Source: Aurantimonas marina (GTDB lineage: Bacteria > Pseudomonadota > Alphaproteobacteria > Rhizobiales > Rhizobiaceae). Taken from it: a stretch of 64,000 nt of DNA. The notes beneath the pieces are model-generated. The model was given only the letters and a program-made list of their open reading frames with translations. It was not told where the DNA came from and did not search any database. Position 1 is the first letter of the stretch; each line of letters starts with the position of its first letter. This document shows, piece by piece, positions 20,080 through 35,407 of the stretch. Both the position numbers and the translations under genes were made by a program. The stretch lies in contig NZ_JADDXW010000010.1 in NCBI RefSeq assembly GCF_017183135.1, positions 62,001 through 126,000 on the forward strand, in the 5' to 3' direction.

Positions 20080-21228
20080 TCAGCCCTTTGCGGACGCAGG
20101 TTCGGCCAGCCCGAACTCGGCGAGAACCCGTTTCGTGTCCTCGCCGAGAGCCGGCACCTTGCCGAATTCGGGAAGCCGTCCATCGATCAAAAAGCCCGGC
20201 GCCAGCATCGTGACCGGGCCTGACGGCGTATCGACCGTCACCGTCCGGTTCTGGGCGTGGTTCTTCAAATCTTCCATATCGGACAGTCGGCCATAGGCGA
20301 TCTGCGCCGCCTCGAGGCGCGCCGCCATGGCGTCGCGATCATGGCGCGCGAAGATGTCCTGGATGATCGCCTCCAGCGCCGGCCGGTTGGCGACGCGCCG
20401 GTTGTTCGATGAGAAGCGCTCGTCGGTGGCCAGTTCCGGTTGCTCCAGCGCCTTGGCGCAAAGATTGACCCATTCGCGCTCGTTCTGGATCGACAACAGG
20501 ATCGCGCGGCCGTCGGAGCATTCGTAGACCCCGTAGGGGGCGATGGTGGGGTGGCTGAGCCCGTTGCGCGGCGGCGTCAGGCCGCCATAGACATATTGCA
20601 GATAGGGAACGTTCATCCAGTCGGAGAGTGCGTGGAACAGCGACAGTGCGATGTGCCGCCCGGCCCCGGTCCGCTCGCGGGCGTAAAGCGCCTGCATGAT
20701 GCTGGATAGCGCGGTCATGCCGGCGGCGATGTCGCAGACCGAAACGCCGACGCGCGCCGGCCCGTGTTCGTTGCCGGTGACGGAAGAAAGCCCCGTCTCC
20801 GCCTGCACCAGAAGGTCATAGGCCTTCAGATGTGCGAGCGGGCCGTCGTCGCCGTAGCCGGAGATCGAGCAGGTGATCAGCCGCGGATAGCGCGCCCGCA
20901 GTTCGTCGGGATCGAAGCCGAGCCGCGAAATGACGCCGGGTGCGAGATTCTGGATGAAGATATCTGCCTTGCCGATCAGCCCGGCGAGTCGTTCGCGATC
21001 CTCGGCATTCTTGAGGTCCAGCCGGACCGATTCCTTGCCACGATTGAGCCAGACGAAATAGGCGCTCTCGCCATGCACGAAGCTGTCGTAACCGCGGGCG
21101 AAGTCGCCCTCCGGGCGTTCGATCTTCAGGACCCGCGCGCCGGCGTCGGCGAGCCGCCCCGAGACATAGGGCGCGGCGACGGCCTGCTCGACGGAAACGA
21201 CGAGAACGCCGGCGAGATCATTGTTCAT
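20080..21228 (-). CDS. CaiB/BaiF-family (class III) CoA-transferase
   Basis: A 382-residue class III CoA-transferase. The N-terminal KIERPEGDFARGYDS, LNRGKESVRLDLKN and the segment with the expected catalytic Asp (VCDIAAGM, Asp-166) are present. Such enzymes move CoA between carboxylic acids, for example succinyl-CoA and an acid. It is divergent from the MmgE/PrpD-fumarase operon with a shared 244-base control region. I therefore infer it activates a C4-C5 dicarboxylate used by that operon (itaconate, mesaconate or citramalate). It differs clearly from the second CoA-transferase at 30.8 kb, so the two are not recent duplicates. Confidence 0.87.
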   Translation of the reverse strand: MNNDLAGVLVVSVEQAVAAPYVSGRLADAGARVLKIERPEGDFARGYDSFVHGESAYFVWLNRGKESVRLDLKNAEDRERLAGLIGKADIFIQNLAPGVISRLGFDPDELRARYPRLITCSISGYGDDGPLAHLKAYDLLVQAETGLSSVTGNEHGPARVGVSVCDIAAGMTALSSIMQALYARERTGAGRHIALSLFHALSDWMNVPYLQYVYGGLTPPRNGLSHPTIAPYGVYECSDGRAILLSIQNEREWVNLCAKALEQPELATDERFSSNNRRVANRPALEAIIQDIFARHDRDAMAARLEAAQIAYGRLSDMEDLKNHAQNRTVTVDTPSGPVTMLAPGFLIDGRLPEFGKVPALGEDTKRVLAEFGLAEPASAKG

Positions 21229-21472
21229 TCAGGAGCTCCGCTTCGCTGCGTGATGGCCAGGGGTGATCGATCTCGGCCGATCGTCGCGCCGGGTTCTATT
21301 CGAGCCGACCGGCGTAAACCAGAGCCGACGGTCGCCAGCGGCAGCGGGTCGCGACGTCGATCCGGCAACAAGACTTGACCCGCGCGACAATGCCAATAAA
21401 CCGACAGGCTTACGATTGTCGCGCCGGAACGGGACGAGCGGGCCACGCAACGCTGCTTGGGAGGGCACGAGC
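21229..21472. promoter_or_regulatory. Divergent control region with a 10-bp-arm palindrome
   Basis: The 244 bases between the CoA-transferase and MmgE/PrpD genes contain a perfect inverted repeat, GCGCGACAAT (21382-21391) and ATTGTCGCGC (21415-21424), centred 70 bases before the MmgE/PrpD start. A -35-like TTGACC (21375-21380) overlaps its left side. This looks like a promoter with an operator for a dimeric regulator. No regulator gene lies nearby. Confidence 0.6.
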
Positions 21473-22849
21473 ATGAGCGACGAAACCACGATCCTCGCGA
21501 CATTCGTCGCCAGGCTGTCCTTCGACGCGATTCCGCCCGAGGTCGCCCTGCGCGCCCGCCATCTGGCGCTCGATCTGACCGGCAGCATCGTGCGGGCCCA
21601 TGCCGAATCGGAATCCACCCCGAGCCTCTATGCGACGCTGGACGAACTCGGCCTCGGCGGGCCGGGCGCCGCCAGCGTCATCGGCACCGGACGCCGGCTG
21701 GCGCCGCCGGTCGCGGCGCTGGTCAACGGCATGCTCGGCCATTCCCTCGATTTCGACGACACCCACGCCGATTCCTCGCTGCATCCCTCCGCCCCGGTGG
21801 TGCCGGCGGCGCTAGCGGTCGGCGAGATGGTCGGCGCGAGCGGCGCCGAGATCGTCACGGCGATCGTCGCCGGCTACGAGGTCTGCTGCCGGCTCGGCAA
21901 TGCGCTCGACCCGACCAGCCATTACGCGCGCGGCTTCCACCCCACCGCGACCGCCGGCACCTTCGGCGCGGCGGCGGCAGCCGCGCGGCTCTTCGGCCTC
22001 GACGCGGACGGTGTCGCCAGCGCTTTCGGCGTCTCCGGCAGTCAGGCGGCCGGTTCGCTGCAATTTCTCGTCAACGGTGCCTGGAACAAGCGCTGGCAGG
22101 TCGGCGCGGCGGCGATGAACGGCGTCTTCGCCGCGACATTGGCCAAGAACGGCTTCAAGGCCGCGTCCGCCCCGATCGAGGGCCGGCACGGACTGCTCGT
22201 CGGCTATACCGACGCCGCCGATCCGGCCAAGGCAGTGGCCGATCTCGGCACCGTGTGGGAAACCATGAAGATCGGCATGAAGCCCTACCCTGCCTGCCGC
22301 TACACCCATGCCGCCCTCGACGGGCTGCTCGCGCTGCGGCGCGAGCAGCGGCTTACCGCAGCCGACGTCCGCTCCGTGACCATCGGCCTGCACCGCAACG
22401 GCATCACGCTGACCGGCGATCCCCTGCCGGAAAAGCGCCGGGTGCGCACCATCGTCGACGGCCAGTTCTCCATGCCCTTCGTCGCCAGCGTCGCCCTCGA
22501 CCAGGGCTCGTTCGGCTGGGACGACTACAGGCGGATCGGCGATCCAGCACTCGACGCATTGTCGGATCGGATCGACGTCGTGCGCGACGAGAGCCTGGAA
22601 GGGCTGGGGCATCCCTTCGGCGCGACGCTCCGCGTCGAGACCAGATCGGGCGCGATGGAGCGACGCATCCCCGACCCGTCCGGCGAGCCGGCGACCTTCC
22701 CGGACGCGGCCGCCATCCGCGCCAAGTTCATGGCGCTGGCCGAACCGGTTCTCGGCGACGACGCCCGACGTCTGGCCGACAGCATCGAAGGGCTCGATCG
22801 CCTCCCAGCCTTCGGCGCGATGCCGCCTTCCAGCGAGGCAGCGGCGTGA
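21473..22849 (+). CDS. MmgE/PrpD-family protein
   Basis: A 458-residue all-helical MmgE/PrpD family protein. Family stretches are GHSLDFDDTHADSSLHPSAPVVPAAL (split as GHSLDFDDTH and LHPSAPVV), AGYEVCCRLG, RGFHPTATAGTFGAAAAAARL and MKPYPACRYTHAALD. The family includes 2-methylcitrate dehydratase (PrpD) and cis-aconitate decarboxylase (Irg1/CadA), so it can dehydrate, isomerise or decarboxylate small tricarboxylates or branched acids. GGGAGGG precedes the ATG at 21473. It is the first gene of the operon and overlaps the fumarase start by four bases. In context it may supply or interconvert a C5/C6 branched acid. No other methylcitrate-cycle gene adjoins it; prpE is 24 kb away. Confidence 0.88.
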   Translation: MSDETTILATFVARLSFDAIPPEVALRARHLALDLTGSIVRAHAESESTPSLYATLDELGLGGPGAASVIGTGRRLAPPVAALVNGMLGHSLDFDDTHADSSLHPSAPVVPAALAVGEMVGASGAEIVTAIVAGYEVCCRLGNALDPTSHYARGFHPTATAGTFGAAAAAARLFGLDADGVASAFGVSGSQAAGSLQFLVNGAWNKRWQVGAAAMNGVFAATLAKNGFKAASAPIEGRHGLLVGYTDAADPAKAVADLGTVWETMKIGMKPYPACRYTHAALDGLLALRREQRLTAADVRSVTIGLHRNGITLTGDPLPEKRRVRTIVDGQFSMPFVASVALDQGSFGWDDYRRIGDPALDALSDRIDVVRDESLEGLGHPFGATLRVETRSGAMERRIPDPSGEPATFPDAAAIRAKFMALAEPVLGDDARRLADSIEGLDRLPAFGAMPPSSEAAA

Positions 22850-24372
22850 GCGCTTCTCCCATCACCGAGGAGGATTTCATCCGCTCGGTCGCGGACGCGC
22901 TGCAATACATCGCGGTCTATCACCCGCCGGATTTCATCGCCCATCTCGCCGAGGCGTATCACCGCGAGGAAAGCCCGTCGGCTAAGAACGCCATGGCGCA
23001 GATCCTGGTCAATTCCCGCATGGCCGCGCTCGGCGGGCGGCCGATGTGCCAGGACACCGGTACGGTCAACGTCTTCGTCAAATTCGGCATGGAGGCGCGC
23101 CTGGCCACCACGCGCCCGCTCGCCGAGCTGGTCAACGAGGCGGTGGCGATCGCCTATACCGACGCGGCGAACCCCTTGCGCCCGTCGATCCTCGACGACC
23201 CGATCTTCGAGCGCAAGAACACCGGGACCAATGCCCCCGCCGTCACCCATGTGGAGCTGGTAGCCGGAAGCGAAATCGCGGTGACGGTGGCGGCCAAGGG
23301 CGGCGGCTCGGAAAACAAGGCGCGTTTCGCCGCGCTCAACCCGGGCGACTCGGTCGTCGACTGGGTGCTGAAGACGGTAGAGGGGCTCGGCGCCGGCTGG
23401 TGTCCACCAGGCATTCTCGGCATCGGCGTCGGCGGCACCGCCGAAAAGGCGATGCTGCTCGCCAAGCAATCGCTGATGGCGCCGATCGACATGACGGCGC
23501 TGATCGCCCGCGGCCCGGCCTCGAAGCTCGAGGAACTGCGCATCGAACTCTATGAGAAGGTCAACGCGCTCGGCATCGGCGCGCAGGGGCTCGGCGGCCT
23601 GACCACGGTGCTCGACGTCAAGATCGCGACCTATCCCGTTCATGCCGCGTCGAAGCCGGTCGGGCTGGTCCCGCAATGCGCCGCCGACCGGCATCTGAGC
23701 TTCACGCTCGACGGCACCGGCCCGGCGGAATTCACGCCGCCGGCGATCGATCGGTGGCCCGACATCGCCCTCGGCCAAGGGGACGCGGCCGTGCCCCGTG
23801 TCGACCTTGATGATCTGACCCGCGAGGATGTCGCCAGCTGGCAGGCCGGCGAGACGCTGCTCCTGTCGGGCCGGCTGCTGACCGGGCGCGACGCCGCCCA
23901 CAAGCGGATGATCGCGATGCTCGATCGCGGCGAGGCACTCCCCGTCGATCTCGATGGCCGCGCGATCTACTATGTCGGGCCCGTCGATGCGGTGCGCGAC
24001 GAGGCGGTGGGACCGGCCGGCCCGACCACGTCGACGCGCATGGACCCGTACACCGACCAATTGCTGGAGGCGACCGGCCTCTTGGTGATGATCGGCAAGG
24101 CCGAGCGCGGTCCGTCGGCGATCGACAGCATAAGGCGGCACGGCGCGGCCTATCTCATCGCCGTCGGCGGCGCGGCCTATCTGGTCTCCAAGGCAATCCG
24201 CTCCTCGCGCGTCCTCGCCTTCGACGATCTCGGCATGGAGGCGATCCGCGAATTCGTGGTCGAGGACATGCCGGTCACCGTCGCGGTCGACGCCAGAGGC
24301 ACCTCCATCCACACCACCGGTCCGGCGCGCTGGAAGCGGCCGGAGATTCGTGTTTCAGGCCGAACGGTCTAG
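22846..24372 (+). CDS. Class I (iron-sulfur) fumarate hydratase family enzyme
   Basis: A 508-residue single-chain class I hydro-lyase with alpha and beta parts fused. It starts at a GTG overlapping the MmgE/PrpD stop (GTGA). The three expected [4Fe-4S] cysteines are Cys-68 in MCQDTGT, Cys-186 in WCPPGILG and Cys-278 in PQCAADRH. The beta part has the family motif GPTTSTRMDPY. Class I fumarases hydrate fumarate and are also known to act on mesaconate, giving citramalate, or on tartrate. Placement in a branched-acid operon rather than with TCA-cycle genes suggests mesaconate as the physiological substrate; this is inference. Oxygen sensitivity is expected for the family. Confidence 0.88.
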   Translation: MSASPITEEDFIRSVADALQYIAVYHPPDFIAHLAEAYHREESPSAKNAMAQILVNSRMAALGGRPMCQDTGTVNVFVKFGMEARLATTRPLAELVNEAVAIAYTDAANPLRPSILDDPIFERKNTGTNAPAVTHVELVAGSEIAVTVAAKGGGSENKARFAALNPGDSVVDWVLKTVEGLGAGWCPPGILGIGVGGTAEKAMLLAKQSLMAPIDMTALIARGPASKLEELRIELYEKVNALGIGAQGLGGLTTVLDVKIATYPVHAASKPVGLVPQCAADRHLSFTLDGTGPAEFTPPAIDRWPDIALGQGDAAVPRVDLDDLTREDVASWQAGETLLLSGRLLTGRDAAHKRMIAMLDRGEALPVDLDGRAIYYVGPVDAVRDEAVGPAGPTTSTRMDPYTDQLLEATGLLVMIGKAERGPSAIDSIRRHGAAYLIAVGGAAYLVSKAIRSSRVLAFDDLGMEAIREFVVEDMPVTVAVDARGTSIHTTGPARWKRPEIRVSGRTV

Positions 24373-24440
24373 CCGCGCGGTTCGGAACAGCTCAAACCTC
24401 CCCAAAAACCACAAGCAATTCGATGAACAGGATGTCTCCA

Positions 24441-25607
24441 ATGAATGCCACGGCGATCGAGAACGAGCACCAGGACATCCGCGAGGCGGTCGCCAGGCTC
24501 TGCGCCGACTTCCCCGGCGAATACTGGCGCAAGCTCGATCGCGAGATGGCCTATCCGGCCGAGTTCGTCGCGGCGCTGACTGATGCCGGCTATCTCGCCG
24601 CGCTGATTCCGGAGGAATATGGCGGCTCCGGCCTGCCGCTTTCGGCCGCCGCGGCGATCCTCGAGGAAGTGCAACGAACCGGGTGCAACGGCGCCGCCTG
24701 TCACGCTCAGATGTATATCATGGGCGCGCTGCTGCGGCATGGCAACGAGGCCCAGAAGCGAGCCTACCTGCCAAAGATCGCGACCGGCGAATTGCGGCTG
24801 CAGGCCTTCGGCGTGACCGAGCCGACCAGCGGCACCGACACGAGTTCGATCAAGACCTTCGCCGAGAAGCGCGGCGACCATTACGTCGTCAATGGCCAGA
24901 AAATCTGGACCTCACGCGCCGAATATTCCGACCTGATGCTGCTGCTCGCCCGCACGACGCCGAAGGACCAGGTCCAGAAGCGCACGGACGGCCTGTCGGT
25001 GTTCATCCTCGACATGCAAGAAGCCAGGAAAGGCGGCATGACCATCCGGCCGATCCGCACGATGATGAACCACGCGACCACCGAGATCTTCTTCGACAAC
25101 GTCACCGTCCCGGCCGAGAATCTGATCGGCGAAGAAGGCAAGGGCTTTCGCTATATTCTCTCGGGCATGAACGCCGAGCGCATCCTGATCGCCGCCGAAT
25201 GCATCGGCGACGCCAAATGGTTCACCGCCAAGTCCACCGCCTACGCCAAGGAACGCTCGGTCTTCGGCCGCCCGATCGGCCAGAACCAGGGGATTCAATT
25301 CCCGATCGCGCGGGCCTATGCGCAGATGCGCGCGGCCGAGCTGATGGTCCATCGCGCGGCGCAGATGTTCGAGGCGGGCGAGAATTGCGGCGCAGAAGCC
25401 AACATGGCCAAGATGCTGGCCGCCGAGGCCTCCTGGGCGGCGGCCGAAGCCTGCGTCCAGACCCATGGCGGCTTCGGTTTCGCCGAGGAATACGACGTCG
25501 AACGCAAGTTCCGCGAGGCGCGGCTCTATCAGGTGGCGCCGATCTCGACCAATCTGATTCTATCCTATCTCGCCGAGCATGTGCTCGGCCTGCCGCGATC
25601 ATACTAG
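24441..25607 (+). CDS. Acyl-CoA dehydrogenase
   Basis: A 388-residue flavin enzyme of the acyl-CoA dehydrogenase family. FAD/substrate motifs are AFGVTEPTSGTDTSSI (123-137), GQKIWTS (152-158), RSVFGRPIGQNQGIQFPIA and QTHGGFGFAEEY (340-351). The usual catalytic Glu of the YEGT motif is absent: the position reads LYQVAPIS with Gln-364. A Glu at 246 (NAERILIA) sits where isovaleryl-CoA dehydrogenase has its base, so activity is probable. Three in-frame ATGs exist (24423, 24432, 24441); the last has AGGA at the right distance. A homologue occupies a similar place in the Pseudomonas itaconate cluster as I remember it. The substrate is unknown; methylsuccinyl-CoA or another short branched acyl-CoA is possible. 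Confidence 0.88.
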   Translation: MNATAIENEHQDIREAVARLCADFPGEYWRKLDREMAYPAEFVAALTDAGYLAALIPEEYGGSGLPLSAAAAILEEVQRTGCNGAACHAQMYIMGALLRHGNEAQKRAYLPKIATGELRLQAFGVTEPTSGTDTSSIKTFAEKRGDHYVVNGQKIWTSRAEYSDLMLLLARTTPKDQVQKRTDGLSVFILDMQEARKGGMTIRPIRTMMNHATTEIFFDNVTVPAENLIGEEGKGFRYILSGMNAERILIAAECIGDAKWFTAKSTAYAKERSVFGRPIGQNQGIQFPIARAYAQMRAAELMVHRAAQMFEAGENCGAEANMAKMLAAEASWAAAEACVQTHGGFGFAEEYDVERKFREARLYQVAPISTNLILSYLAEHVLGLPRSY

Positions 25608-25707
25608 CGGAACGAAAAGGATTGGGGGCAGTATTCCGCCGGCATCCCGCGCCAACTGACTGGAATCGAACATTTCGAGACATCATCATCCAGGGAGACG
25701 CAAGCCG

Positions 25708-26565
25708 ATGAGCGAGACGATCGATATCGGCCATCTGAAACGCTGGATCGGCCGCACCGAAGAGGCCGACGACCAGATCGACATAAGACTCGTCCGCTCG
25801 TTTCTGGCGACGCTCGACCGCGATCCGGGCGACGTGTCCGAGGGCGATCCGGCACCGCTCTGCCTGCATTGGTGCCTTGCGCCGCCGGTGGTACCCAACT
25901 CTGCCACCGGACCGGACGGACACCCGGCGCGCGGCGGTTTCCTGCCGCCGGTGCCGCTGCCCCGGCGCATGTGGGCCGGTGGCGAACTGCGTTTTCTGGC
26001 CCCGCTCGTCGTTGGCGACCGGGTGACGCGGCGCTCGCGCATCGAAGCCGTCGAACTCAAGCAGGGCCGCTCCGGACCCTTGTGCTTCGTGACGGTCCGG
26101 CATGACATTCTCGCATCCGCTGTCGTCGCCATCGAGGAGCGCCAGGACGTCGTCTACCGCGCCGCCGAGACCGGCGGCGCCACGCCCGCAGGGCGGCGGC
26201 CCGAGGCACTCGAGACGCCGAAAGCCGACGCGACCCACAGCTTCGAGCCGAGCCCCCTCGCCCTGTTCCGTTATTCGGCCCTGACCTTCAACGGCCATCG
26301 CATCCATTACGATCGATCCTATTGCCTCGAGGAAGAGAACTATCCCGGCCTCGTCGTGCACGGGCCGCTGCAGGCGACGCTGCTGGCACATCTCGCGGCC
26401 GAGACGCTTGGTCGGACGCCGGCGGTGTTTTCCTATCGTGGCGTCAAGCCGCTGTTCGACGGCGAAACGATGGGCCTCAACGCGCGGCGCAACGGCAACG
26501 GCTGCGAACTCTGGTCGAACGGCGCCGATGGCGCGGCGCGGATGCAGGCGACGGCGTGGGTCTGA
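25708..26565 (+). CDS. MaoC/FAS1-like hot-dog hydratase (possible mesaconyl-C4-CoA or itaconyl-CoA hydratase)
   Basis: A 285-residue double hot-dog protein with a FAS1-like dehydratase domain. The N-terminal half has PLCLHWCLAPPVVP and the GFLPPVPLPRRMWAGGELRF stretch (79-96). The C-terminal half has the hydratase-type motif HRIHYDRSYC then YPGLVVHGPL (about 197-221, with Asp-202 and His-218 as likely catalytic residues). This architecture is that of mesaconyl-C4-CoA hydratase and itaconyl-CoA hydratase, which make citramalyl-CoA, and of related fungal HTD2-like proteins. It is the last gene of the MmgE/PrpD-fumarase-ACAD operon, 100 bases after the dehydrogenase, and converges on tctA. The family is well supported; the exact substrate is inferred from context. 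Confidence 0.82.
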   Translation: MSETIDIGHLKRWIGRTEEADDQIDIRLVRSFLATLDRDPGDVSEGDPAPLCLHWCLAPPVVPNSATGPDGHPARGGFLPPVPLPRRMWAGGELRFLAPLVVGDRVTRRSRIEAVELKQGRSGPLCFVTVRHDILASAVVAIEERQDVVYRAAETGGATPAGRRPEALETPKADATHSFEPSPLALFRYSALTFNGHRIHYDRSYCLEEENYPGLVVHGPLQATLLAHLAAETLGRTPAVFSYRGVKPLFDGETMGLNARRNGNGCELWSNGADGAARMQATAWV

Positions 26566-26595
26566 ACCGCCGAGCGCCCGTCCCTGCGCGGCGTC

Positions 26596-28128
26596 TCAGT
26601 CCGCCATCGTCTCCTGCTCGATCTCCAACGCCGGCTTCGCCCGCCGCCGCTTGCGGAACGCGAAATAGACGGCGGCGAGAAGGAAGAACGCCGTCACCGT
26701 GTAGAGTCCGATCGAAATCCCGCTGCCGATGAGGATTGCCGGATCGCCGCCCGAGATCGACAGCGCCCGCCGCAGCATGCTTTCCATCTCGCCGCCGAGC
26801 AAAAGCCCGAGTACGACCGGGACCACGGAGATGTCGAGCTTGCGCAGGATGAAACCGAGGACGCCGAACCCGACCATGACGTGCAGGTCGAAGGTGGAGT
26901 GGCTGATCGAATAGATGCCGACGAAGGAAATCATCACCACGAACGGCATCAGCGCCCACATCGGGATCGACAGCATCCGGGTGAACAGGCCGACCAGCGG
27001 CAGATTGAGGATCAGCAGGAACACGTTCGCCATGAACAGCGCCGCGATCAGGCCCCAGACGATATCCGGCTGGTTCTGGAATAACAGCGGCCCCGGGGTG
27101 ATATTGAGCGAGATCAGCAGCGCCAGCAGCACCGCCGTCGTGCCCGAGCCCGGCACGCCGAGCGCTAGCATCGGCACCAGCGCCCCGCCGGCGGCGGCAT
27201 TGTTGCCGGCCTCGGGCGCCGCGACCCCGCGCGGATCGCCTTTGCCGAAGGTGTTGTTGCTGTTCGAATAGCGCTTTTCCAGCGTATAGGCGATGAACGA
27301 ACCGAGCGAAGCACCCGCCCCCGGCAGGATGCCGGCGACGAAGCCGAGCCCCGAGCCGCGAAACATCGCGCCGAGCGCCTTGCGGATATCCGCCCAGCGG
27401 GCGAAGGCGCGTTTGACCGGGATTGCGCCGGCATGACCGCCAGCACCGTGTTCCAAAAGGATCAGCGCCTCGGAGATAGCGAAGAGGCCGACAATCGCGA
27501 CGATCGCGTGAAAACCGTCATAAAGATGGAAGTTGTCGAAGGTGTAGCGCGGCACGCCGCTTTGTGGGTCGATCCCCACCGTTCCCAGCGCCAGGCCGAT
27601 CCCAGCCGCCAGCAGCGTCTTGGCGGGATTGGCGCCGGTGATGCCGCCGATCGTGGCGAAGGCCATGACGTAGAGCGCGAAATATTCGGCCGGGCCGAAG
27701 CGGATGGCGAACTGGACCAGAAGCGGCGCAAACAGCACGAGGCCGATGGTCGAAGCCACCGCGCCGACGAAGGAGGCGATGCCGGAAATCGCCAGGGCTT
27801 CCGGTGCCTTGCCCTGCTGGGCCATCGGATAGCCGTCGAGACAGGTCATCATCGCCGGTTCGTCGCCGGGGATGTTCAGCATGATCGAAGAGATGCGGCC
27901 GCCATACATGCAGCCGTAATAGACACAGGCGAGCAGAATCAGCGCCGAGCCCGCCGGCAGTTGCAGCGAGAACGCCAGCGGGATCAGGATGGCGACGCCG
28001 TTGACCGGGCCGAGGCCGGGGAGCGCCCCGATGATCGTGCCGATGAAGCAACCGAACAGGGCGAGCCCGATATTCGTCGGGGTGAGGGCTGTGGCGAAGC
28101 CGTCGGCGAGAAAACCAAGAATTTCCAC
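26596..28128 (-). CDS. tctA: Tripartite tricarboxylate transporter, large permease subunit
   Basis: A 510-residue TctA-family protein with about twelve transmembrane segments. It carries the two glycine-rich family motifs ALPGLGPVNGVAILIPLAF and GILPGAGASLGSFIAYTLEK. The GTG start at 28128 is supported by AAGGAG six bases upstream. With TctB and TctC it imports a di- or tricarboxylate using an ion gradient. It is the last gene of tctCBA and converges on the hydratase gene with 30 bases between stops, linking the transporter to the branched-acid island. Confidence 0.93.
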   Translation of the reverse strand: MEILGFLADGFATALTPTNIGLALFGCFIGTIIGALPGLGPVNGVAILIPLAFSLQLPAGSALILLACVYYGCMYGGRISSIMLNIPGDEPAMMTCLDGYPMAQQGKAPEALAISGIASFVGAVASTIGLVLFAPLLVQFAIRFGPAEYFALYVMAFATIGGITGANPAKTLLAAGIGLALGTVGIDPQSGVPRYTFDNFHLYDGFHAIVAIVGLFAISEALILLEHGAGGHAGAIPVKRAFARWADIRKALGAMFRGSGLGFVAGILPGAGASLGSFIAYTLEKRYSNSNNTFGKGDPRGVAAPEAGNNAAAGGALVPMLALGVPGSGTTAVLLALLISLNITPGPLLFQNQPDIVWGLIAALFMANVFLLILNLPLVGLFTRMLSIPMWALMPFVVMISFVGIYSISHSTFDLHVMVGFGVLGFILRKLDISVVPVVLGLLLGGEMESMLRRALSISGGDPAILIGSGISIGLYTVTAFFLLAAVYFAFRKRRRAKPALEIEQETMAD

Positions 28129-28158
28129 GTGATCTCCTTGGCACCGGTCAAGCGGTGA

Positions 28159-28599
28159 CTAGCCGAACAGCGGTCCCATCGGCAGCGGCAGACCGAAAAT
28201 GCCGTCGAACAGAAAGAACAGCCCGAAACCGATCACCAGTCCGGTGAGAACGGATTGCAACCAGCTTCCGCCGAGAATCCGGGCCAGAAAAACCGCCGCG
28301 ACGCTTGTCGACAGCGGAAAGCCCGCCGGTTCGAGGACAAACGGATAGGCGATGAGGACCGCCAGCATGGCGAACTGGCCCCAGACATGGGGCCAGCGGA
28401 ACCAGACCGGGTCGGGATCCGGCTTAACGATCAGAAAGGCGGCGAACAGACCGAGCGGCACGGCGACCATGCGGGGAAACAGGCTGGGACCGGCCGGATC
28501 GCCATAGGCTACGACATAGTCGCTGGCGGCGATCCAGTACCAGATCGCGAGGGCGAGCAGTAACGCCCCCGCAATCCGGTCGCTGAGACGAAGGCTCAT
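28159..28599 (-). CDS. tctB: Tripartite tricarboxylate transporter, small membrane subunit
   Basis: A 146-residue protein with four hydrophobic segments (AGALLLALAIWYWIA, LFPRMVAVPLGLFAAFLI, FAMLAVLIAYPFVL, and a C-terminal LVIGFGLFFLFDGIFG), as in TctB. The ATG at 28599 is chosen over 28620 because AGGACC stands just before it and 28620 would overlap tctC. It begins seven bases after the tctC stop. Confidence 0.9.
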   Translation of the reverse strand: MSLRLSDRIAGALLLALAIWYWIAASDYVVAYGDPAGPSLFPRMVAVPLGLFAAFLIVKPDPDPVWFRWPHVWGQFAMLAVLIAYPFVLEPAGFPLSTSVAAVFLARILGGSWLQSVLTGLVIGFGLFFLFDGIFGLPLPMGPLFG

Positions 28600-28606
28600 G
28601 GCGGTC

Positions 28607-29581
28607 CTACTGGATGACACCGATAGCCTTCGAGATCTCGGCGGCCTTGTCCTTGGACTCGCGGACGAAGGCGTCGAATTCCTTACCGCCGCGCCAGATC
28701 GGGGTCAGGCCGGACTCGGTCGCCGCCGTCTGCCAGCCTTCCGAATCGTAGAGCGTCTTCATCTTCTCGACCCAGAAATCATAGGCGTCGTCGGGAACCC
28801 CGCCGCCCATGTAGAAGCCGCGCCAGTTGTAGCCGACCGCTTCGATGCCCTGCTCCTTGGCGGTGGCGATATCCGGATAGGCCGGAAGCCTGTCGTCGGA
28901 CATGACCGCGAGCGCCTTGGCGTCGCCCGACTGGATGAAGCCGCCGATTTCACCGATGTCGGTGAGGACGACGCCAATATGGCCGCCGAGCAACTGGGTG
29001 ACGGCGTCACCGCCGCCGGAGAACTCCACCCAACGGATGTCCTTCAGCTTGTCGGTCGGAACGCCCGCTTCCTGCGCCAGGATCAGGAACCGCAGATGGT
29101 CCCAGCCGCCGATCGAGGACGATCCGCCGACCACGATTCCGGCCGGGTCTTCCTTGACGGCGGCGAGCACGGCTTCCAGCGAGTCGTATTCGGAATCCTT
29201 GTTGACCAGCACCGTGCCGACATCTGCTCCGAGCATGCCTAGCCACCGCATCTGATCGATGCCGGCCGGGTACTTGTCCTGGGCGATCTGGGTGATGCCG
29301 ACGGTCGACGTCGCCACGATCAGGTTCGGGTCGTCATTGCGCTTCGATGCTACATTGGCGAAGGCCACCGCGCCGACGGCGCCCGGCATGTTGGTGACCT
29401 GGACGGCACCCGGCACGAGACCCTCTTCCTGCAGAATCCGCCCGACCGTCCGGCAGGTGAAATCCCAGCCTCCGCCGGGATTGGCCGGCGCGATGCATTC
29501 GACATTCGACGGCTCGAACGCCGCCGCCGGCAAGGCGATCGACGCGACGGCCGCGGCCATCAACAAACGTTTCAAAAACAT
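28607..29581 (-). CDS. tctC: Tripartite tricarboxylate transporter solute-binding protein
   Basis: A 324-residue periplasmic receptor of the Bug/TctC family. The signal peptide is residues 1-21 (LPAAAFE). The motifs IAPANPGGGWDFTCRT and NMPGAVGAVAFANV belong to the ligand-binding site seen in Bug proteins, which hold the carboxylate through main-chain amides and two waters. It is first in tctCBA and divergent from the lyase gene at 29850. Bug proteins bind citrate, aspartate, glutamate, nicotinate and similar acids. The ligand here is inferred to be the acid degraded by the neighbouring enzymes. Confidence 0.92.
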   Translation of the reverse strand: MFLKRLLMAAAVASIALPAAAFEPSNVECIAPANPGGGWDFTCRTVGRILQEEGLVPGAVQVTNMPGAVGAVAFANVASKRNDDPNLIVATSTVGITQIAQDKYPAGIDQMRWLGMLGADVGTVLVNKDSEYDSLEAVLAAVKEDPAGIVVGGSSSIGGWDHLRFLILAQEAGVPTDKLKDIRWVEFSGGGDAVTQLLGGHIGVVLTDIGEIGGFIQSGDAKALAVMSDDRLPAYPDIATAKEQGIEAVGYNWRGFYMGGGVPDDAYDFWVEKMKTLYDSEGWQTAATESGLTPIWRGGKEFDAFVRESKDKAAEISKAIGVIQ

Positions 29582-29728
29582 GACTTCCCTCCCTCAGGCG
29601 GCAGCTCTTGCGTCCCCCGCCATGTTGTCGGCTGCATGAGATCATGCCGTCAGCGGCATTTTTACTGCGGGCCTTCCTAGTGGATGACACCGAAGCAAAC
29701 GACTGGTCAAGGCCGAAGTCGCAACCTT

Positions 29729-29772
29729 CTATGCTGCGTCGCACATAGAATTTATGCTGCGACGCGGGGCAT
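29729..29772. promoter_or_regulatory. Two tandem dyad-symmetric sites between tctC and the lyase gene
   Basis: Site 1, CTATGCTGCGTCGCACATAG (29729-29748), has outer arms CTATG/CATAG and an inner TGCG-T-CGCA dyad. Site 2, ATGCTGCGACGCGGGGCAT (29754-29772), repeats the ATGCTGCG core and closes with GCAT. The starts are 24 bases apart, on nearly the same helix face, in the 268-base divergent region. This is the pattern of a two-site operator serving both the transporter and the lyase/CoA-transferase operon. Confidence 0.6.
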
Positions 29773-29849
29773 CAATTGGAAATTTACTTTCCAGCGCACC
29801 TTCAGGTATGGAAACCGTCACACCACCGAAACAAAATAGGAGCGGGACG

Positions 29850-30821
29850 ATGGCCGAAACCGGCAATGTGCTTCCCATGCCGGTGCGCGCGGGGAGCCGG
29901 GTTGAAATCTGCGAGGTGGGCCCGCGCGACGGCTTCCAGATCGAGAAACAATTCATCCCGACGCAACGCAAGATCGAAATCGTCAACAGTCTGATCGATG
30001 CCGGCTTGCGCAAGGTCCAGGTGACCTCCTTCGTCTCGCCCCGCGCCGTGCCACAACTCGCCGACGCTGCTGAGGTTCTGGCCGGGATCGAAAAGAAGCC
30101 AGGCGTGATCCTGACGGCGCTGGTGCCGAACGCCCGCGGCGCCGAGCGGGCGGCCGCGACGCAACTCGACATCATGGGCCTGTTCTGCTCGGCCTCCGAA
30201 GCGCACAGCCGCAAGAACGTCAACGCCTCTATCGACGAGACGCTGGCCCGCTTCCCGCCAGTGGTTGAGATCGCCAAAGCGGCCGGCAAGCGAGTCCAGG
30301 GAGGCGTTGCCACCGCCTTCGGCTGCCCCTTCGAGGGCGACGTGCCGCCGGAATCCGTCGTAAGGATCGCGCGCTTCTACCGTGATCTCGGCATCGTCGA
30401 TCTTAATCTTGGCGACACGACCGGCATGGCAACGCCAACGACGGTCAAGGCGTTGCTGGCGGCCCTGCGGGAGGGCGTGCCGGAAATGAAAATCACGCTG
30501 CATTTCCACAACACGCGCGGCGTCGGCCTCGCCAACGTCATGGTCGGGCTCGCCGAGGGCGTCAACCGCTATGATTCCTCGATCGGCGGTCTTGGCGGCT
30601 GCCCCTTCGCGGCGGGGGCGACGGGCAATATCTGCACCGAGGATCTCGTCTATCTGCTCGAGGAAAGCGGTTATGAGACCGGCGTCGATCTCGAACGCCT
30701 GATCGATGTGGCCAAGCGAACCGAGACGATCCTTGGCCGCGAGTTGCCGGGCCAGGTGATCAAGGCCGGGCCGCGTCTGACCCGGCACGGCGTCGACGAT
30801 GTCTCGACGGCGGCGGGTTGA
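29850..30821 (+). CDS. HMG-CoA-lyase-family lyase (possible citramalyl-CoA lyase)
   Basis: A 323-residue HMGL-like TIM-barrel enzyme. Catalytic features of HMG-CoA lyase are present: GPRDGFQ (Arg-26, Asp-27), the divalent-metal ligands HFH (His-218, His-220), the glycine loop GLGGCPFA with Cys-251, and Asn-260. Such enzymes cleave hydroxyacyl-CoAs by a retro-aldol/Claisen reaction. The next gene is a class III CoA-transferase. This same pairing is known for the (R)-citramalate CoA-transferase and (R)-citramalyl-CoA lyase of Chloroflexus, so citramalyl-CoA (to acetyl-CoA and pyruvate) is as likely as HMG-CoA (leucine breakdown). No other leucine-pathway gene is near. The ATG at 29850 has AGGAGC upstream; a longer start at 29754 is rejected. 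Confidence 0.88.
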   Translation: MAETGNVLPMPVRAGSRVEICEVGPRDGFQIEKQFIPTQRKIEIVNSLIDAGLRKVQVTSFVSPRAVPQLADAAEVLAGIEKKPGVILTALVPNARGAERAAATQLDIMGLFCSASEAHSRKNVNASIDETLARFPPVVEIAKAAGKRVQGGVATAFGCPFEGDVPPESVVRIARFYRDLGIVDLNLGDTTGMATPTTVKALLAALREGVPEMKITLHFHNTRGVGLANVMVGLAEGVNRYDSSIGGLGGCPFAAGATGNICTEDLVYLLEESGYETGVDLERLIDVAKRTETILGRELPGQVIKAGPRLTRHGVDDVSTAAG

Positions 30822-30826
30822 GCGGC

Positions 30827-32011
30827 ATGGAGCAGCCGCTCGCCGGCATTCGCGTCGTCGATCTGACGCGGATTCTTTCCGGCCCGTTCTGTTCGATGAT
30901 CCTCGGCGATCTCGGCGCCGATGTCGTCAAGATCGAAACGCCTGGGACGGGCGATCACGTGCGCGGCCAGGGAGCCATCATCGACGGCATGTCTTGGTAC
31001 TTTGCCAGCTTCAACCGCAACAAGCGCTCGATGACGCTCGACCTGAAGCGCGAGGAGGGAAAAGCCGTCCTGCGTAAACTCTTGGCCGAGGCCGACGTGC
31101 TGGTCGAGAATTTCCGGCCCGGCGTCCTCGCCGCGATGGGGCTCGACCGCGCCGGCCTCGACGCCATCAATCCGCGGCTCGTCGTCGGCTCGGTCAATGG
31201 CTACGGCACCACCGGCCCCTATAGCGAGCGGCCGGCCTTCGATTTTATCACCCAGGCGATGTCCGGCTTCATGGCGGTGAACGGGACGATGGAAAGCGGT
31301 CCGATCCGCGCCGCACCACCACTGACCGATCTCATCGCCGGTCTCTATACGGCGCTCGGCATCGTCGCGGCGTTGAGGACACGCGATCGCGACGGCCACG
31401 GCCAAGCGGTCGAATCGTCCATGATGAACGGCATGATCTCGATGATGGCCTATCTGTCGGCCGCCCAGCTCGCCACCGGCCAGACGCCGCCGCCGACCGG
31501 CAACGATCACCCGATCGCCTCGCCCTATGGGCTGTTCCAGGCGTCCGACGGTCCGGTGGCGGTCGCCGCGTCGACCACGCCGATCCTGCGCCGGTTCCTG
31601 GAGACGACCGGGCTGTTGGCGATGCTGGAGGATGAGCGCTTCGATACCAACGCCAAGCGGGTCGAACGCCGCGCCGAGGTCAATGCGATGATCGACGATG
31701 CCATGCGTCACGAAAGTCAAGCGGTCTGGATCGCGCGGCTGAACGCCGCTGGCGTTCCCTGCGGCCGGGTCCAGACGCTCGCGGAGGTGTTCGAGGACCC
31801 GCAGGTGCGGGATCAGGAGATGGTCCTCGACATCGATCATCCGGGCCACGGCACGGTTCGGATGACCGGCTTTCCGATCAAATTCTCCGACACGCCCTGC
31901 GTCATCCGCCATCCAGCGCCGGATCTCGGTGCCGACACCGACACGGTTCTTACCGAGGCGGGCTATTCGTCCGCCGAGATCGCGGCGTTACGGGACGACG
32001 GCGTGATCTGA
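30827..32011 (+). CDS. CaiB/BaiF-family (class III) CoA-transferase, second copy
   Basis: A 394-residue class III CoA-transferase. The conserved elements are LSGPFCSMILGDLGADVVKIE, FNRNKRSMTLDLK, ENFRPGV, INPRLVVGSVNGYG and the catalytic Asp-168 in PLTDLIAG. It begins six bases after the lyase stop; a TTG overlapping that stop (30818) is an alternative start. Tight coupling to the lyase implies that it makes the lyase's CoA-ester substrate, plausibly succinyl-CoA:citramalate (or itaconate/mesaconate) CoA-transfer. It shares the class III fold with the gene at 20.1-21.2 kb but is far from it in sequence. Confidence 0.88.
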   Translation: MEQPLAGIRVVDLTRILSGPFCSMILGDLGADVVKIETPGTGDHVRGQGAIIDGMSWYFASFNRNKRSMTLDLKREEGKAVLRKLLAEADVLVENFRPGVLAAMGLDRAGLDAINPRLVVGSVNGYGTTGPYSERPAFDFITQAMSGFMAVNGTMESGPIRAAPPLTDLIAGLYTALGIVAALRTRDRDGHGQAVESSMMNGMISMMAYLSAAQLATGQTPPPTGNDHPIASPYGLFQASDGPVAVAASTTPILRRFLETTGLLAMLEDERFDTNAKRVERRAEVNAMIDDAMRHESQAVWIARLNAAGVPCGRVQTLAEVFEDPQVRDQEMVLDIDHPGHGTVRMTGFPIKFSDTPCVIRHPAPDLGADTDTVLTEAGYSSAEIAALRDDGVI

Positions 32012-32084: not shown

Positions 32085-33035
32085 TTAGAGCAGGCCAGCT
32101 TCCTTGTAGTAGCGCTCGGCGCCGGGATGCAGCGCGACCGGCAGGTTCTTGGCCGCCTTGGCCGGATCGATGGACTTCGCCGCATTGTGGGCAGCGACCA
32201 GCTCCGGCAGGTTTTCGATCAGCTGCTTGGTCATCTGGTAGACCAGCTCCTCGTCGACGTCGCTCGATGTGACCAAGATATTGGTGATCGCCAGCGTCGG
32301 AACGGCTTCCGTCTGGCCATCATAGGTGCCGGCCGGAATTTCCGCTGCCTGGAATGGCGCGCCGAGCTTTTCGGCGATGTCGGCTGGAACCGCGACGACC
32401 GTGATTGGCAGCGACGAGGCGAGATCGCGGATCGAGGCGACACCGAGGCCGGCCGACTGAAGCGTCGCGTCGAGCTGGCGGTTCTTGATCAGCTCGACCG
32501 ACTCGGCGAAGGGCAGATATTCGGTCTTGCCGAGATCCTCATAGCTCATGCCCGCGGCCGAGAAGATCGCCCGCGCGTTGAGTTCGGTACCCGAGGCCGG
32601 TGCGCCGACCGATAGCGCCTTGCCCTTCAGACCGGCCAGATCGGTGATGCCGGAATCCTTGGAGGCGACGATCTGGACGTAGTTGGGATAGATCGCGGCG
32701 ATGGCGCGCAGCTTCTCGACCGGCTGCTGGAAGCCGGCGTCGGCGTTGCCTTCGGCGGCGGCCTTGACCGAGTCGCCGAGGGCGAAGGCGATCTCGCCGC
32801 GTCCCTGGGCGATCAGATTGATGTTCTCGACCGAGGCCTTGGTCGACTGGACCTGGGTCTTCACTCCCTCGATCTTGTCGCCATAAACCTTGGCCAGCGC
32901 GACACCGAGCGGATAGTAGACGCCGGACGTGCCGCCGGTGAGCACATTGATGAACTGCTGGGCCGAGGCCGCGGCCGGCGCCATGGCAAGGCCCGCGACG
33001 AGTGCCGAAGCGGCGAGACGGTTGAATAGCTTCAT
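32085..33035 (-). CDS. TAXI-family TRAP transporter solute-binding protein
   Basis: A 316-residue periplasmic receptor of the TAXI group. The signal peptide is 1-25 (AAASAQQ). The mature start VLTGGTSGVYYPLGVALAKVY is the family hallmark, followed by IAFALGDSVKAAAEG and LSVGAPASGTELNARAI. The ATG at 33035 has GGGAGGA upstream. TAXI receptors normally work with a fused TRAP membrane protein encoded next door, but no TRAP permease gene is present on either side, so this is an orphan receptor or its permease lies elsewhere. Known TAXI ligands include glutamate and 2-oxoglutarate-like acids. Confidence 0.88.
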   Translation of the reverse strand: MKLFNRLAASALVAGLAMAPAAASAQQFINVLTGGTSGVYYPLGVALAKVYGDKIEGVKTQVQSTKASVENINLIAQGRGEIAFALGDSVKAAAEGNADAGFQQPVEKLRAIAAIYPNYVQIVASKDSGITDLAGLKGKALSVGAPASGTELNARAIFSAAGMSYEDLGKTEYLPFAESVELIKNRQLDATLQSAGLGVASIRDLASSLPITVVAVPADIAEKLGAPFQAAEIPAGTYDGQTEAVPTLAITNILVTSSDVDEELVYQMTKQLIENLPELVAAHNAAKSIDPAKAAKNLPVALHPGAERYYKEAGLL

Positions 33036-33235
33036 GAAGTGTCCTCCCAAAAAGGGCCACGGCGGCCCGATCGCCGATTTGTAACAGCCGGCGGCAAAAC
33101 CTCAAGGGCAGTGCCATCCAGGGGCTTCGGCGCCGGGTAGCGCCGCCGCGCGTGGCGTGCCTGCGTCCTCCGCCGAATTGACTTCACGCGCGCCATGTCG
33201 GATGTCCTCCCGCAACGCAATATCGGAGAACCCGC

Positions 33236-35407
33236 ATGTCCGACATGATCGACGTCCACGACCTCAAAGTTGCGACCATCCTGAAGACTTTCATCGACTC
33301 CGAAGCCTTGCCGGATACCGGGATCGCGCCGGATGTCTTCTGGAAAGGGACCTCGGACATCCTCAACGGGCTGGCGCCGCGCAACCGCGAGTTGCTGCGG
33401 GTCCGCGAGGACATGCAGGCCAGGATCGACGACTGGCACCGCGAGCGCCGCGGCAAGCCGATCGACATGAAGGAATACAAGGCGTTCCTGAGCGATCTCG
33501 GCTATCTTGTGCCGGAGGGTCCGGACTTTGTCATCGAGACCGACAATGTCGATCCGGAGATCGCGTTGATCCCCGGTCCGCAGCTCGTCGTGCCGCTGAT
33601 GAACGCGCGCTACACGCTGAACGCGGCCAATGCCCGCTGGGCCTCGCTCTACGACGCGCTCTACGGTACCGACGCGATGGGCGACCTTCCCGAGGGCAAG
33701 GGCTACGACCGGGCGCGAGGAGCGCGCGTCGTCACCTGGGCGAAGAGCTTCCTCGACGGCTTGGCCCCGCTCGATCGCATCTCGCATATCGACGTGAAGG
33801 CCTATTCGGTCGAGGAGGGCACGCTCGCCGCCACCTTCAACGGTGGCAAGCAGGCGCGGCTGAAGAACCCGGGAGCCTTCGCCGGCTATCGCGGCGACGC
33901 GGCGGCGCCGACGGCCTTGCTGTTCAAGCATAACGGTCTGCATCTGGAAGTGACCATCGATGCGACCAGCCGCATCGGCAAGAACGACCCGGCGAACGTC
34001 GCCGACATGGTGATGGAATCGGCGATCACCACGATCTGCGACTGCGAGGATTCGATCGCCGCGGTCGACGCGGAGGACAAGACCGCCGTCTATCGCAACT
34101 GGCTCGGCCTGATGAAGGGCGACCTTGAGGACAGCTTCGAAAAGGGCGGCGAGACGGTGACGCGGCGGCTGAACCCGGATCGCGACTATGTCGGCGCCGA
34201 CGGCGCGCCCCTCGCCCTGCCGGGCCGCTCGCTGCTCCTGATCCGCAATGTCGGCCACCTGATGACCAACCCGGCCATCCAGCTCAAGGACGGGAGCGAG
34301 GTGCCGGAGGGCATCATGGACGCGGTGATCACGGCGATGATCGCGATGCACGACCTCAAGAAGACCGGCGGCCTCCGCAATTCGCGTTCCGGCTCGATCT
34401 ACATCGTCAAGCCGAAGATGCACGGACCGGACGAGGTCGCCTTCTCCGACGAGATCTTCGGCCGCGTCGAGGATCTTCTCGGCCTGCCTCGCTACACGTT
34501 GAAGATGGGCATCATGGACGAGGAGCGCCGCACCACGGTCAATCTCAAGGAGTGCATCCGCGCGGCCAAGCACCGGGTGTTCTTCATCAACACCGGCTTC
34601 CTCGATCGCACCGGCGACGAGATCCACACCTCGATGGAAGCCGGTCCGATGGTCCGCAAGACGGTGATGAAGGACCGCACCTGGATCAAGGCCTATGAGG
34701 ACTGGAACGTCGATGTCGGCCTCGCCTGCGGCCTCACGGGCAAGGCGCAGATCGGCAAGGGCATGTGGGCGATGCCGGCCAGGATGCACGACATGCTGGC
34801 ACAGAAGATCGGCCATCCCCAGGCCGGCGCCAACACTGCCTGGGTGCCGAGTCCGACAGCGGCAACGCTGCACGCGACGCATTATCACAAGGTCGACGTG
34901 CTCGCCTGGCAGCAGGCGATCGCCCAGAAGGGCCGGCGGGCGATCCTTTCCGACATCCTGACCATTCCGCTGGCCAACCGCGCCAACTGGCCGGAGGAGC
35001 AGGTGAAAGGCGAGGTCGAGAACAACGCGCAGGGCATCCTCGGCTATGTGGTGCGCTGGATCGATCAGGGCGTCGGCTGCTCGACCGTGCCCGACATCAA
35101 CGATGTCGGCCTGATGGAGGACCGCGCCACCTGCCGGATTTCCTCCCAGCACATCGCCAACTGGCTGCATCACGGCGTCGTCTCCAGGGACGAGGTGATG
35201 GAAGCCATGAAGAAGATGGCCAGGAAGGTCGACGAGCAGAACGCCGGCGATCCGAACTACCAGCCGATGGCCGAAAATTTCGACGGCTCGATCGCCTTCA
35301 AGGCGGCCTGCGATCTGGTCTTCGAGGGACGTGAACAGCCCTCCGGCTATACCGAGCCGGTTCTGCATCGCCGCCGGCTGGAGAAGAAGGCGCGGACGGC
35401 GTCCTGA
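33236..35407 (+). CDS. glcB: Malate synthase G
   Basis: A 723-residue malate synthase, the same length as E. coli GlcB. Characteristic segments are [32 protein letters not shown] (the catalytic-loop acidic region), [34 protein letters not shown] and [14 protein letters not shown]. It condenses glyoxylate with acetyl-CoA to malate. GGAGAA precedes the ATG at a proper distance. It is a single-gene transcript divergent from the orphan TAXI receptor gene. Isocitrate lyase is not in the window. The enzyme would also consume acetyl-CoA released by the neighbouring branched-acid pathway. Confidence 0.96.

Follow-up and report, generated by a model that had tools for sequence, protein, structure and literature searches.

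How would a bacterium complete the breakdown of itaconate and other C5-branched dicarboxylates if the gene cluster for the pathway held no gene for a CitE-type citramalyl-CoA lyase? The question is raised by an island at positions 20080-32011 of the stretch analyzed here, 64,000 nucleotides of Aurantimonas marina contig NZ_JADDXW010000010.1 (hereafter the window). In Pseudomonas aeruginosa and Cupriavidus necator, itaconate is degraded via Ict, Ich and Ccl, and methylsuccinate needs Msi and Mcd besides (excerpts of PMC12290011 and PMC9875883); Ich and the CitE-type (S)-citramalyl-CoA lyase, Ccl, are treated as specific enzymes of itaconate breakdown in the excerpt of PMC12290011. The island in the window consists of two abutting modules. 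Module A has a class III CoA-transferase (CoAT1) divergent from genes for an MmgE/PrpD-family protein, a class I fumarase, an acyl-CoA dehydrogenase (ACAD) and an Ich-like hydratase. Module B has a tripartite tricarboxylate transporter (tctCBA) divergent from an HMGL-family lyase and a second class III CoA-transferase (CoAT2). We propose, with roughly even confidence, that the island serves C5-branched dicarboxylates and that HMGL and CoAT2 of module B also supply the citramalyl-CoA cleavage for module A.

In the pathway that we infer, including its substrates, the direction of flux and the evolutionary loss of ccl, the fumarase would first hydrate mesaconate to (S)-citramalate. CoAT1 would activate itaconate, (S)-citramalate or methylsuccinate, ACAD would oxidize methylsuccinyl-CoA, and the hydratase would convert itaconyl-CoA or mesaconyl-C4-CoA to citramalyl-CoA. 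Module A would have lost its CitE-type citramalyl-CoA lyase. TctCBA would import citramalate or a related acid, CoAT2 would activate the imported acid, and the non-canonical HMGL-family lyase would split citramalyl-CoA into acetyl-CoA and pyruvate. If HMGL performs this cleavage in module B, the pathway of module A would also be closed.

Results

Module A and the absent CitE-type lyase

Gene content, sequence identities, gene order, the absence of ccl and the subfamily signature of the lyase can be read directly from the DNA and its relatives. By sequence comparison, module A is orthologous to a known itaconate/methylsuccinate cluster, as found on plasmid pShin-09 of Shinella sp. HZN7 (ict | ccl-mmgE-mcd-ich). 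The genes common to both have the same order and orientation, with identities of 69% for CoAT1, 62% for MmgE, 65% for ACAD and 55% for Ich. The Shinella cluster has CitE; fumarase, Tct and HMGL are not listed in the 21 kb shown of it. Against the P. aeruginosa cluster, taken from a plasmid record, the identities are 49.6% to Ict (over 377 amino acids), 65.0% to Mcd, 45.8% to Ich and 34.1% to Msi. The Ich-like hydratase has the solved relatives 8khg and 8huc (best E 1.7e-59), one of the two being named itaconyl-CoA hydratase. The itaconate-type chemistry put forward by the initial annotation, made from the sequence alone, is broadly right and is supported by CoAT1, ACAD and the hydratase (50, 65 and 46% in rounded figures), but MmgE is not a clear methylsuccinate isomerase.

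The arrangement recurs within the genus. Three other Aurantimonas records carry CoAT1 | MmgE-Fum-Ich | TctABC | HMGL-CoAT2 in the order of the window at 86-98% identity, which argues that the gene order is not due to chance. HMGL lies nearby and CitE is absent in the window and in all three of these A-clusters.

The initial annotation had assigned the lyase step to an HMGL-type enzyme, and we find no CitE-type ccl in the island locus. A search for Ich matched 116 of 297 family genomes. Setting the window's own match aside, we took the stretches surrounding the 60 top matches; CitE occurs in 17 of these 60, some HMGL in 4 and a fumarase in 4. A CitE-less Ich locus is thus not rare, and we rejected the idea that the missing CitE is remarkable in itself, since 43 of the 60 stretches, some of them cut by contig ends, show none. 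The comparison with loci holding the window type of MmgE (at least 55% identity) is narrower: eight of the 60 stretches and Shinella make nine such loci, and CitE lies in the same stretch in eight. In the ninth, Aureimonas locus L059 (G, L and C numbers are our handles for genomes, loci and contigs), CitE is found just beyond the stretch, 3-4 kb from MmgE (longer record L153; G683).

Genome-wide matches to PF03328 were counted in eight genomes, a set that leaves out those of L150 and L154. There are two each in the window's own genome (G000; 4.03 Mb in 66 contigs), G681 and G682, versus three to six in G023, G274, G683, G684 and G685. The two in G000 are a 258-amino-acid HpcH-type protein and a lyase beside a leuD-like gene with an Aconitase_C domain (L011:6005-6895, contig C23); this leuD-neighbour lyase is 32% identical to Ccl. 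In a wider set of 42 chosen genomes, comprising Aurantimonas and both CitE-bearing and CitE-less Ich genomes, six have no second CitE-type match at E <= 1e-15. Three of the six are the Aurantimonas genomes with both modules (G000, G681 and G682), two (G041 and G201) were not matched by the Ich search, and the last is G208. The HMGL subfamily of the window (at least 57% identity) is present in eight of the 42: six of the window's genus, G133 and G148.

An HMGL subfamily with altered active-site residues

Judged from its residues and its place in a tree, the HMGL of the window belongs to a subfamily with altered active-site positions. We compared 18 subfamily rows, the window included, with 22 rows labelled canonical-type from their sequence rather than from gene neighbours; the counts leave out four rows resembling locus L088, a second Skermanella copy, the copy on contig C56 and a duplicate of the window. 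Four positions are uniform across the subfamily. HHD is replaced by HHN in 18/18 (D in 21/22 canonical-type rows), Phe by His in 18/18 (Phe in 22/22), Ile after GDT by Thr in 18/18 (Ile in 22/22), and Trp by Ala in 18/18 (Trp in 18/22). At the equivalent of Tyr167, 16 of the 18 have Ala or Gly and the other two Cys or Ser, while canonical-type rows have Tyr (14), Phe (4) or another residue (4). We take the Tyr167 and Glu72 positions to follow human HMG-CoA lyase numbering, in which the catalytic residues are presumably R41, D42, E72, D204, H233, H235, C266 and N275. The window enzyme keeps all of these except E72, which is Gln.

All five of the solved HMGL sequences displayed, including two human ones, have Glu at the Glu72 position. 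Gln is found in the window and in four of the six other genus copies (L150, L151, L152 and G137), Glu in G041 and G201; within the set of 18 subfamily rows, Gln is confined to the window and Ponticoccus. We had considered the change from Glu72 to Gln as a mark of Aurantimonas with module A, and rejected this because G137, without an adjacent module A, also has Gln. The tree places 21 of the 22 canonical-type rows together in a supported clade (100/98) that excludes the window, whose HMGL groups with Ponticoccus and Roseomonas (99/96); support for the larger subfamily fork is weaker (92/82).

A plasmid of Pontibrevibacter nitratireducens (L337:3267-10924) carries MmgE, ACAD, a tripartite ATP-independent periplasmic (TRAP) transporter, a CoA-transferase and HMGL in one direction, with a divergent gene for an ECH_1 enoyl-CoA hydratase nearby; neither Ich nor CitE is annotated in this plasmid stretch, to which the observation is confined. 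Its ACAD is 68% identical to that of the window and its MmgE about 31-32% to both MmgE types. Its HMGL, 48% identical to the window's, agrees with most of the signature: Ala stands at the Trp position, His at the Phe position, Ala at the Tyr167 position and Asn at the HHD position, but GDT is followed by Ile rather than Thr, and Glu72 is retained. The tree does not include this HMGL, and the operon is one case among the listed hits rather than the result of a survey. It may be a second exchange of ccl for HMGL.

A different HMGL-like protein accompanies Ich and Mcd in loci L088, L090, L100 and L109 (G148, G032 and G123), which are without CitE. It has Glu at Asp42 and Gln at Glu72. These loci also encode a protein with a citrate-synthase domain, in L088 of 268 amino acids, the size of a citryl-CoA lyase; a Pfam match to biotin carboxylase lies near Ich/Mcd in L088 only.

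Module B in other genomes

The arrangement tctCBA | HMGL-CoAT2 is found on plasmids in six of the ten HMGL regions read: Ponticoccus, two Nitratireductor, Skermanella, Paracoccus seriniphilus and Alloyangia. These share the divergent layout, with HMGL 58-67% and TctA 66-74% identical to the window, and genes of the itaconate type are absent from the stretches read. In five of the six, unlike the window, TctC and HMGL are separated by a GntR regulator. The arrangement occurs in Tritonibacter as well. In seven further genomes of the class (L292-L298), HMGL adjoins CoAT2, and tctABC was not found in the stretch. The genes leuCD come after the HMGL-CoAT pair on C. necator pBB2 and are located upstream of it in Roseomonas. 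LeuCD-type enzymes are able to interconvert citraconate and (R)-citramalate, and these neighbours make citramalate the favoured substrate of module B; the association would fit citraconate/(R)-citramalate. The Chloroflexus (R)-citramalyl-CoA lyase and its CoA-transferase are HMGL-like and encoded by adjacent genes.

Elsewhere in the window's own genome, contig C56 encodes at about 189-196 kb (L013:1891-8566) a phosphoenolpyruvate-mutase/isocitrate-lyase-family protein, a class III CoA-transferase, a TRAP transporter (DctM-DctP-DctQ) and a further HMGL with 41% identity to that of the window. The genome thus holds two HMGL-CoAT uptake modules.

One pathway or two neighbours

Several observations weigh against a joint pathway. 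None of the 60 Ich stretches has the HMGL subfamily of the window beside Ich (the four HMGLs are of the L088-like type), and CitE is commonly missing from these stretches. G208, which has Ich, lacks both a second CitE-type match and the subfamily, which counts against any strict rule. The change from Glu to Gln does not track module A, since G137 has Gln whereas G041 and G201 have Glu. Other genomes carry module B by itself, including these three of the window's own genus, where it has no module A neighbour in the stretch. It is therefore not tied to module A, and G137 has module B together with a separate CitE-bearing cluster, which shows that HMGL and CitE can occur in one genome.

Stereochemistry is a further point. 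According to the excerpt of PMC6689899, the substrates split by CitE-type lyases are (S)-citramalyl-CoA and (R)-3-hydroxy-3-methylglutaryl-CoA (HMG-CoA), and HMGL-type lyases split (S)-HMG-CoA. By Cahn-Ingold-Prelog priority, (S)-HMG-CoA is the spatial counterpart of (R)-citramalyl-CoA, and an unmodified HMGL would accordingly take the R form. The fumarase and Ich yield S products, whereas the HMGL fold predicts R, a mismatch that the initial annotation overlooked when it assigned the citramalyl-CoA step to an HMGL-type lyase. Either the subfamily has changed its preference, or module B serves (R)-citramalate and the leuD-neighbour lyase acts in module A.

The second way out leads to a tentative but substantial alternative, in which the modules are independent neighbours. 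Module A would proceed via (S)-citramalyl-CoA and the leuD-neighbour lyase, a CLYBL/Mcl-like enzyme encoded on another contig, and module B would be a separate system for the uptake and cleavage of (R)-citramalate, or of an acid derived from citraconate, its lyase being an (R)-citramalyl-CoA lyase of the Chloroflexus kind. Besides the stereochemistry, the solitary occurrence of module B and its leuCD partners, this is favoured by the leuD-neighbour lyase itself, whose best solved relatives are malyl-CoA lyase and human CLYBL; from this resemblance, it could cleave (S)-citramalyl-CoA. A match to it, at 43-100% identity, is present in all 42 chosen genomes (the leuD neighbourhood having been established in our own). 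That it has a match in every genome, the ccl-bearing ones included, indicates that it did not arise as a replacement; the idea that it replaced ccl is weakened by this, and we retain it as the main rival. The same genomes also speak against independent neighbours, because relatives with a match to this lyase retain a dedicated ccl, as does the adjacency of modules A and B in four Aurantimonas records, all without ccl.

Promoter alignments (four Aurantimonas copies for module A, five for module B) bear on the same choice. A palindrome in the module A promoter is conserved in all four records. Its 7-base core has one match in the window and none in 100 shuffles, and among 332 loci it is found, besides the Aurantimonas records and our own genome, only in the unrelated stretch L091. 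The CGCGACAAT/ATTGTCGCG palindrome is absent from the module B promoter, and we found no operator shared by A and B. This argues for separate control, and a single regulon is unsupported. Under the joint pathway that we prefer, the proximity of A and B could reflect shared use despite separate control. The initial annotation had treated the genes as a single island; the modules are adjacent in three other Aurantimonas records, but they occur apart in other genomes.

It is improbable, in our judgment, that HMGL is an ordinary HMG-CoA lyase, with module B degrading 3-hydroxy-3-methylglutarate or serving leucine breakdown. The NCBIfam model for hydroxymethylglutaryl-CoA lyase does match it (374.7 bits against a cut-off of 246), and the six solved sequences that it matches at E <= 1e-60 are all named HMG-CoA lyases. 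The solved relatives of CoAT2 include succinate--hydroxymethylglutarate CoA-transferase, and the genome has one other HMGL match at E <= 1e-50, so that the window copy could double as one. The four uniform signature positions and the separate canonical-type clade nevertheless disfavour a canonical leucine-type HMGL. Gln at Glu72 in the window, four further Aurantimonas copies and Ponticoccus differs from the solved enzymes, and no leucine-pathway gene was seen beside HMGL in the locus, to which that inspection was confined.

MmgE, ACAD and fumarase

The MmgE of the window is 62-78% identical to members of the Shinella, G274 and G023 clusters. Two MmgE clades accompany Mcd/Ich (loci L045-L109), one with 59-65% identity to P. 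aeruginosa Msi, in 15 of 60 loci, and that of the window with 34-38%. At 34% the window protein falls outside the Msi clade, and its identification as methylsuccinate isomerase is unsupported. In published work on such clusters, MmgE and ACAD serve to degrade methylsuccinate (excerpts of PMC12290011 and PMC9875883), a role that the window ACAD fits by its sequence. ACAD is missing between Fum and Ich in all three other Aurantimonas records (L150-L152), a clean presence/absence difference within the genus, and MmgE of the window clade persists there without adjacent Mcd. G681 and G682 retain an ACAD of 65-66% identity elsewhere in the genome.

We consider it highly improbable that module A is devoted to a different dicarboxylate, one that would undergo dehydrogenation and hydration as its CoA ester: an MmgE outside the Msi clade, the lack of ACAD beside it in the three other Aurantimonas records and the assignment of a second C. 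necator Ich homologue to a different pathway (excerpt of PMC12290011) would suit such a substrate, but Ict-, Mcd- and Ich-like proteins occur together here, sister clusters have CitE, and the best hit of the hydratase is a solved itaconyl-CoA hydratase.

Hydration of mesaconate to (S)-citramalate is a known activity of class I fumarases (excerpts of PMC4682846 and, for P. putida PP_0897, PMC9875883). A domain search finds both Fumerase domains of a class I fumarase/mesaconase in the window protein, which is the sole class I match in the genome, beside one FumC-type match elsewhere. A mesaconase role, as first suggested by the initial annotation, is therefore reasonable, and the single class I match fits a dedicated enzyme. 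In a scan of the named records, the best 80 of 297 relatives, the fumarase has 95-96% identity in the three Aurantimonas records and 71-74% in five Aureimonas records. A fumarase within the cluster is also present in Aureimonas and other relatives that retain CitE.

Gene content and flanks of the island

All genes originally listed for the island are confirmed by searches with domains or relatives (Table 1), including a complete transporter with TctA, TctB and TctC each found by domain. No additional gene was seen between the island genes (20080-32011), in agreement with the claim that no unrelated gene lies inside. The HMGL and CoAT2 genes overlap by 4 bases. MmgE is named from solved relatives and weak NCBIfam PrpD matches rather than from Pfam; its start was set from a reading of the DNA, and that of HMGL by eye at an ATG preceded by a run resembling a ribosome site. 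The "unusual composition" once ascribed to the island is apt for its gene content but not for its bases, as G+C in 2 kb steps is 0.63-0.69, the same as in the remaining window.

Table 1. Features of the island and its candidate operator in window coordinates
Feature	Position	Strand	Basis
CoAT1, class III CoA-transferase, Ict-like, module A	20080..21228	-	PF02515, 353.8 bits
Candidate operator, palindrome CGCGACAAT-N23-ATTGTCGCG, divergent CoAT1/MmgE promoter	21383..21423		conserved in 4/4 Aurantimonas records
MmgE/PrpD-family protein, outside Msi clade	21473..22849	+	solved relatives, IDS epimerase first; weak NCBIfam PrpD matches
Class I (Fe-S) fumarase, candidate mesaconase	22846..24372	+	PF05681, 300 bits; PF05683, 265 bits
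ACAD, Mcd-like, candidate (RS)-methylsuccinyl-C4-CoA dehydrogenase	24423..25607	+	65% to P. aeruginosa Mcd
Ich-like FAS1_DH/MaoC-type hydratase, candidate itaconyl-CoA/mesaconyl-C4-CoA hydratase	25708..26565	+	PF13452
TctA, large permease, tripartite tricarboxylate transporter, module B	26596..28128	-	PF01970, 501 bits
TctB, small permease	28159..28620	-	PF07331
TctC, solute-binding protein	28607..29581	-	PF03401
HMGL-family lyase, non-canonical subfamily, candidate citramalyl-CoA lyase	29850..30821	+	PF00682, 165.1 bits; subfamily signature; tree
CoAT2, class III CoA-transferase	30818..32011	+	PF02515, 441.7 bits; HMGL partner in module B elsewhere

To the right of CoAT2 lie a TAXI-type binding protein (32085-33050) and malate synthase G (33236-35407). 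The TAXI-family TRAP binding protein adjoins CoAT2 in all three other Aurantimonas records too, and no permease partner for it was recognized in the neighbouring open frames scanned.

Discussion

The joint pathway that we favour can be carried a step further. An HMGL-fold lyase may have displaced the CitE-type Ccl in the cleavage of (S)-citramalyl-CoA. This would be a non-orthologous displacement in which the enantiomer preference expected for the fold is inverted, aided by changes in the pocket (Tyr to Gly/Ala and, in the window, Glu to Gln), and it may have happened separately in Aurantimonas and Pontibrevibacter. In this full form, the idea seems to us rather unlikely.

If the proposed pathway is correct, some degraders of itaconate, mesaconate and citramalate may have been overlooked or misread as leucine degraders, a risk that arises because the annotated plasmid records that we read give the HMGL-family enzyme the name HMG-CoA lyase. 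The locus would also offer a clean test case for whether the fold sets the enantiomer that is cleaved. Moreover, it points to a small Tct-HMGL-CoAT uptake-and-cleavage module across several alphaproteobacterial orders. Among open-licence PMC papers, we found no title or abstract opening that describes an HMGL-type lyase in itaconate degradation, and no paper that joins Aurantimonas and itaconate.

Comparison with known systems

The ich-mcd-msi-ict-ccl clusters of P. aeruginosa and C. necator contain a related CoA-transferase, dehydrogenase and hydratase, and likewise have an MmgE/PrpD protein in the operon. The island in the window differs in that it is without the CitE-type ccl, has a class I fumarase within the operon and an MmgE of a different clade, replaces the TRAP transporter with a tripartite tricarboxylate transporter, and is adjoined by HMGL and a second CoA-transferase. 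Its fumarase is of the same class as fumarase/mesaconases such as E. coli FumD and P. putida PP_0897 (excerpts of PMC4682846 and PMC9875883); it lies in the operon, and relatives with a fumarase near such clusters carry CitE as well. Module B may be compared with the (R)-citramalyl-CoA lyase (EC 4.1.3.46) and succinyl-CoA:(R)-citramalate CoA-transferase (EC 2.8.3.20), which form the same pairing of lyase and CoA-transferase (excerpt of PMC8307300). The locus is thus a variant of a known cluster with a candidate enzyme swap, rather than a new kind of system.

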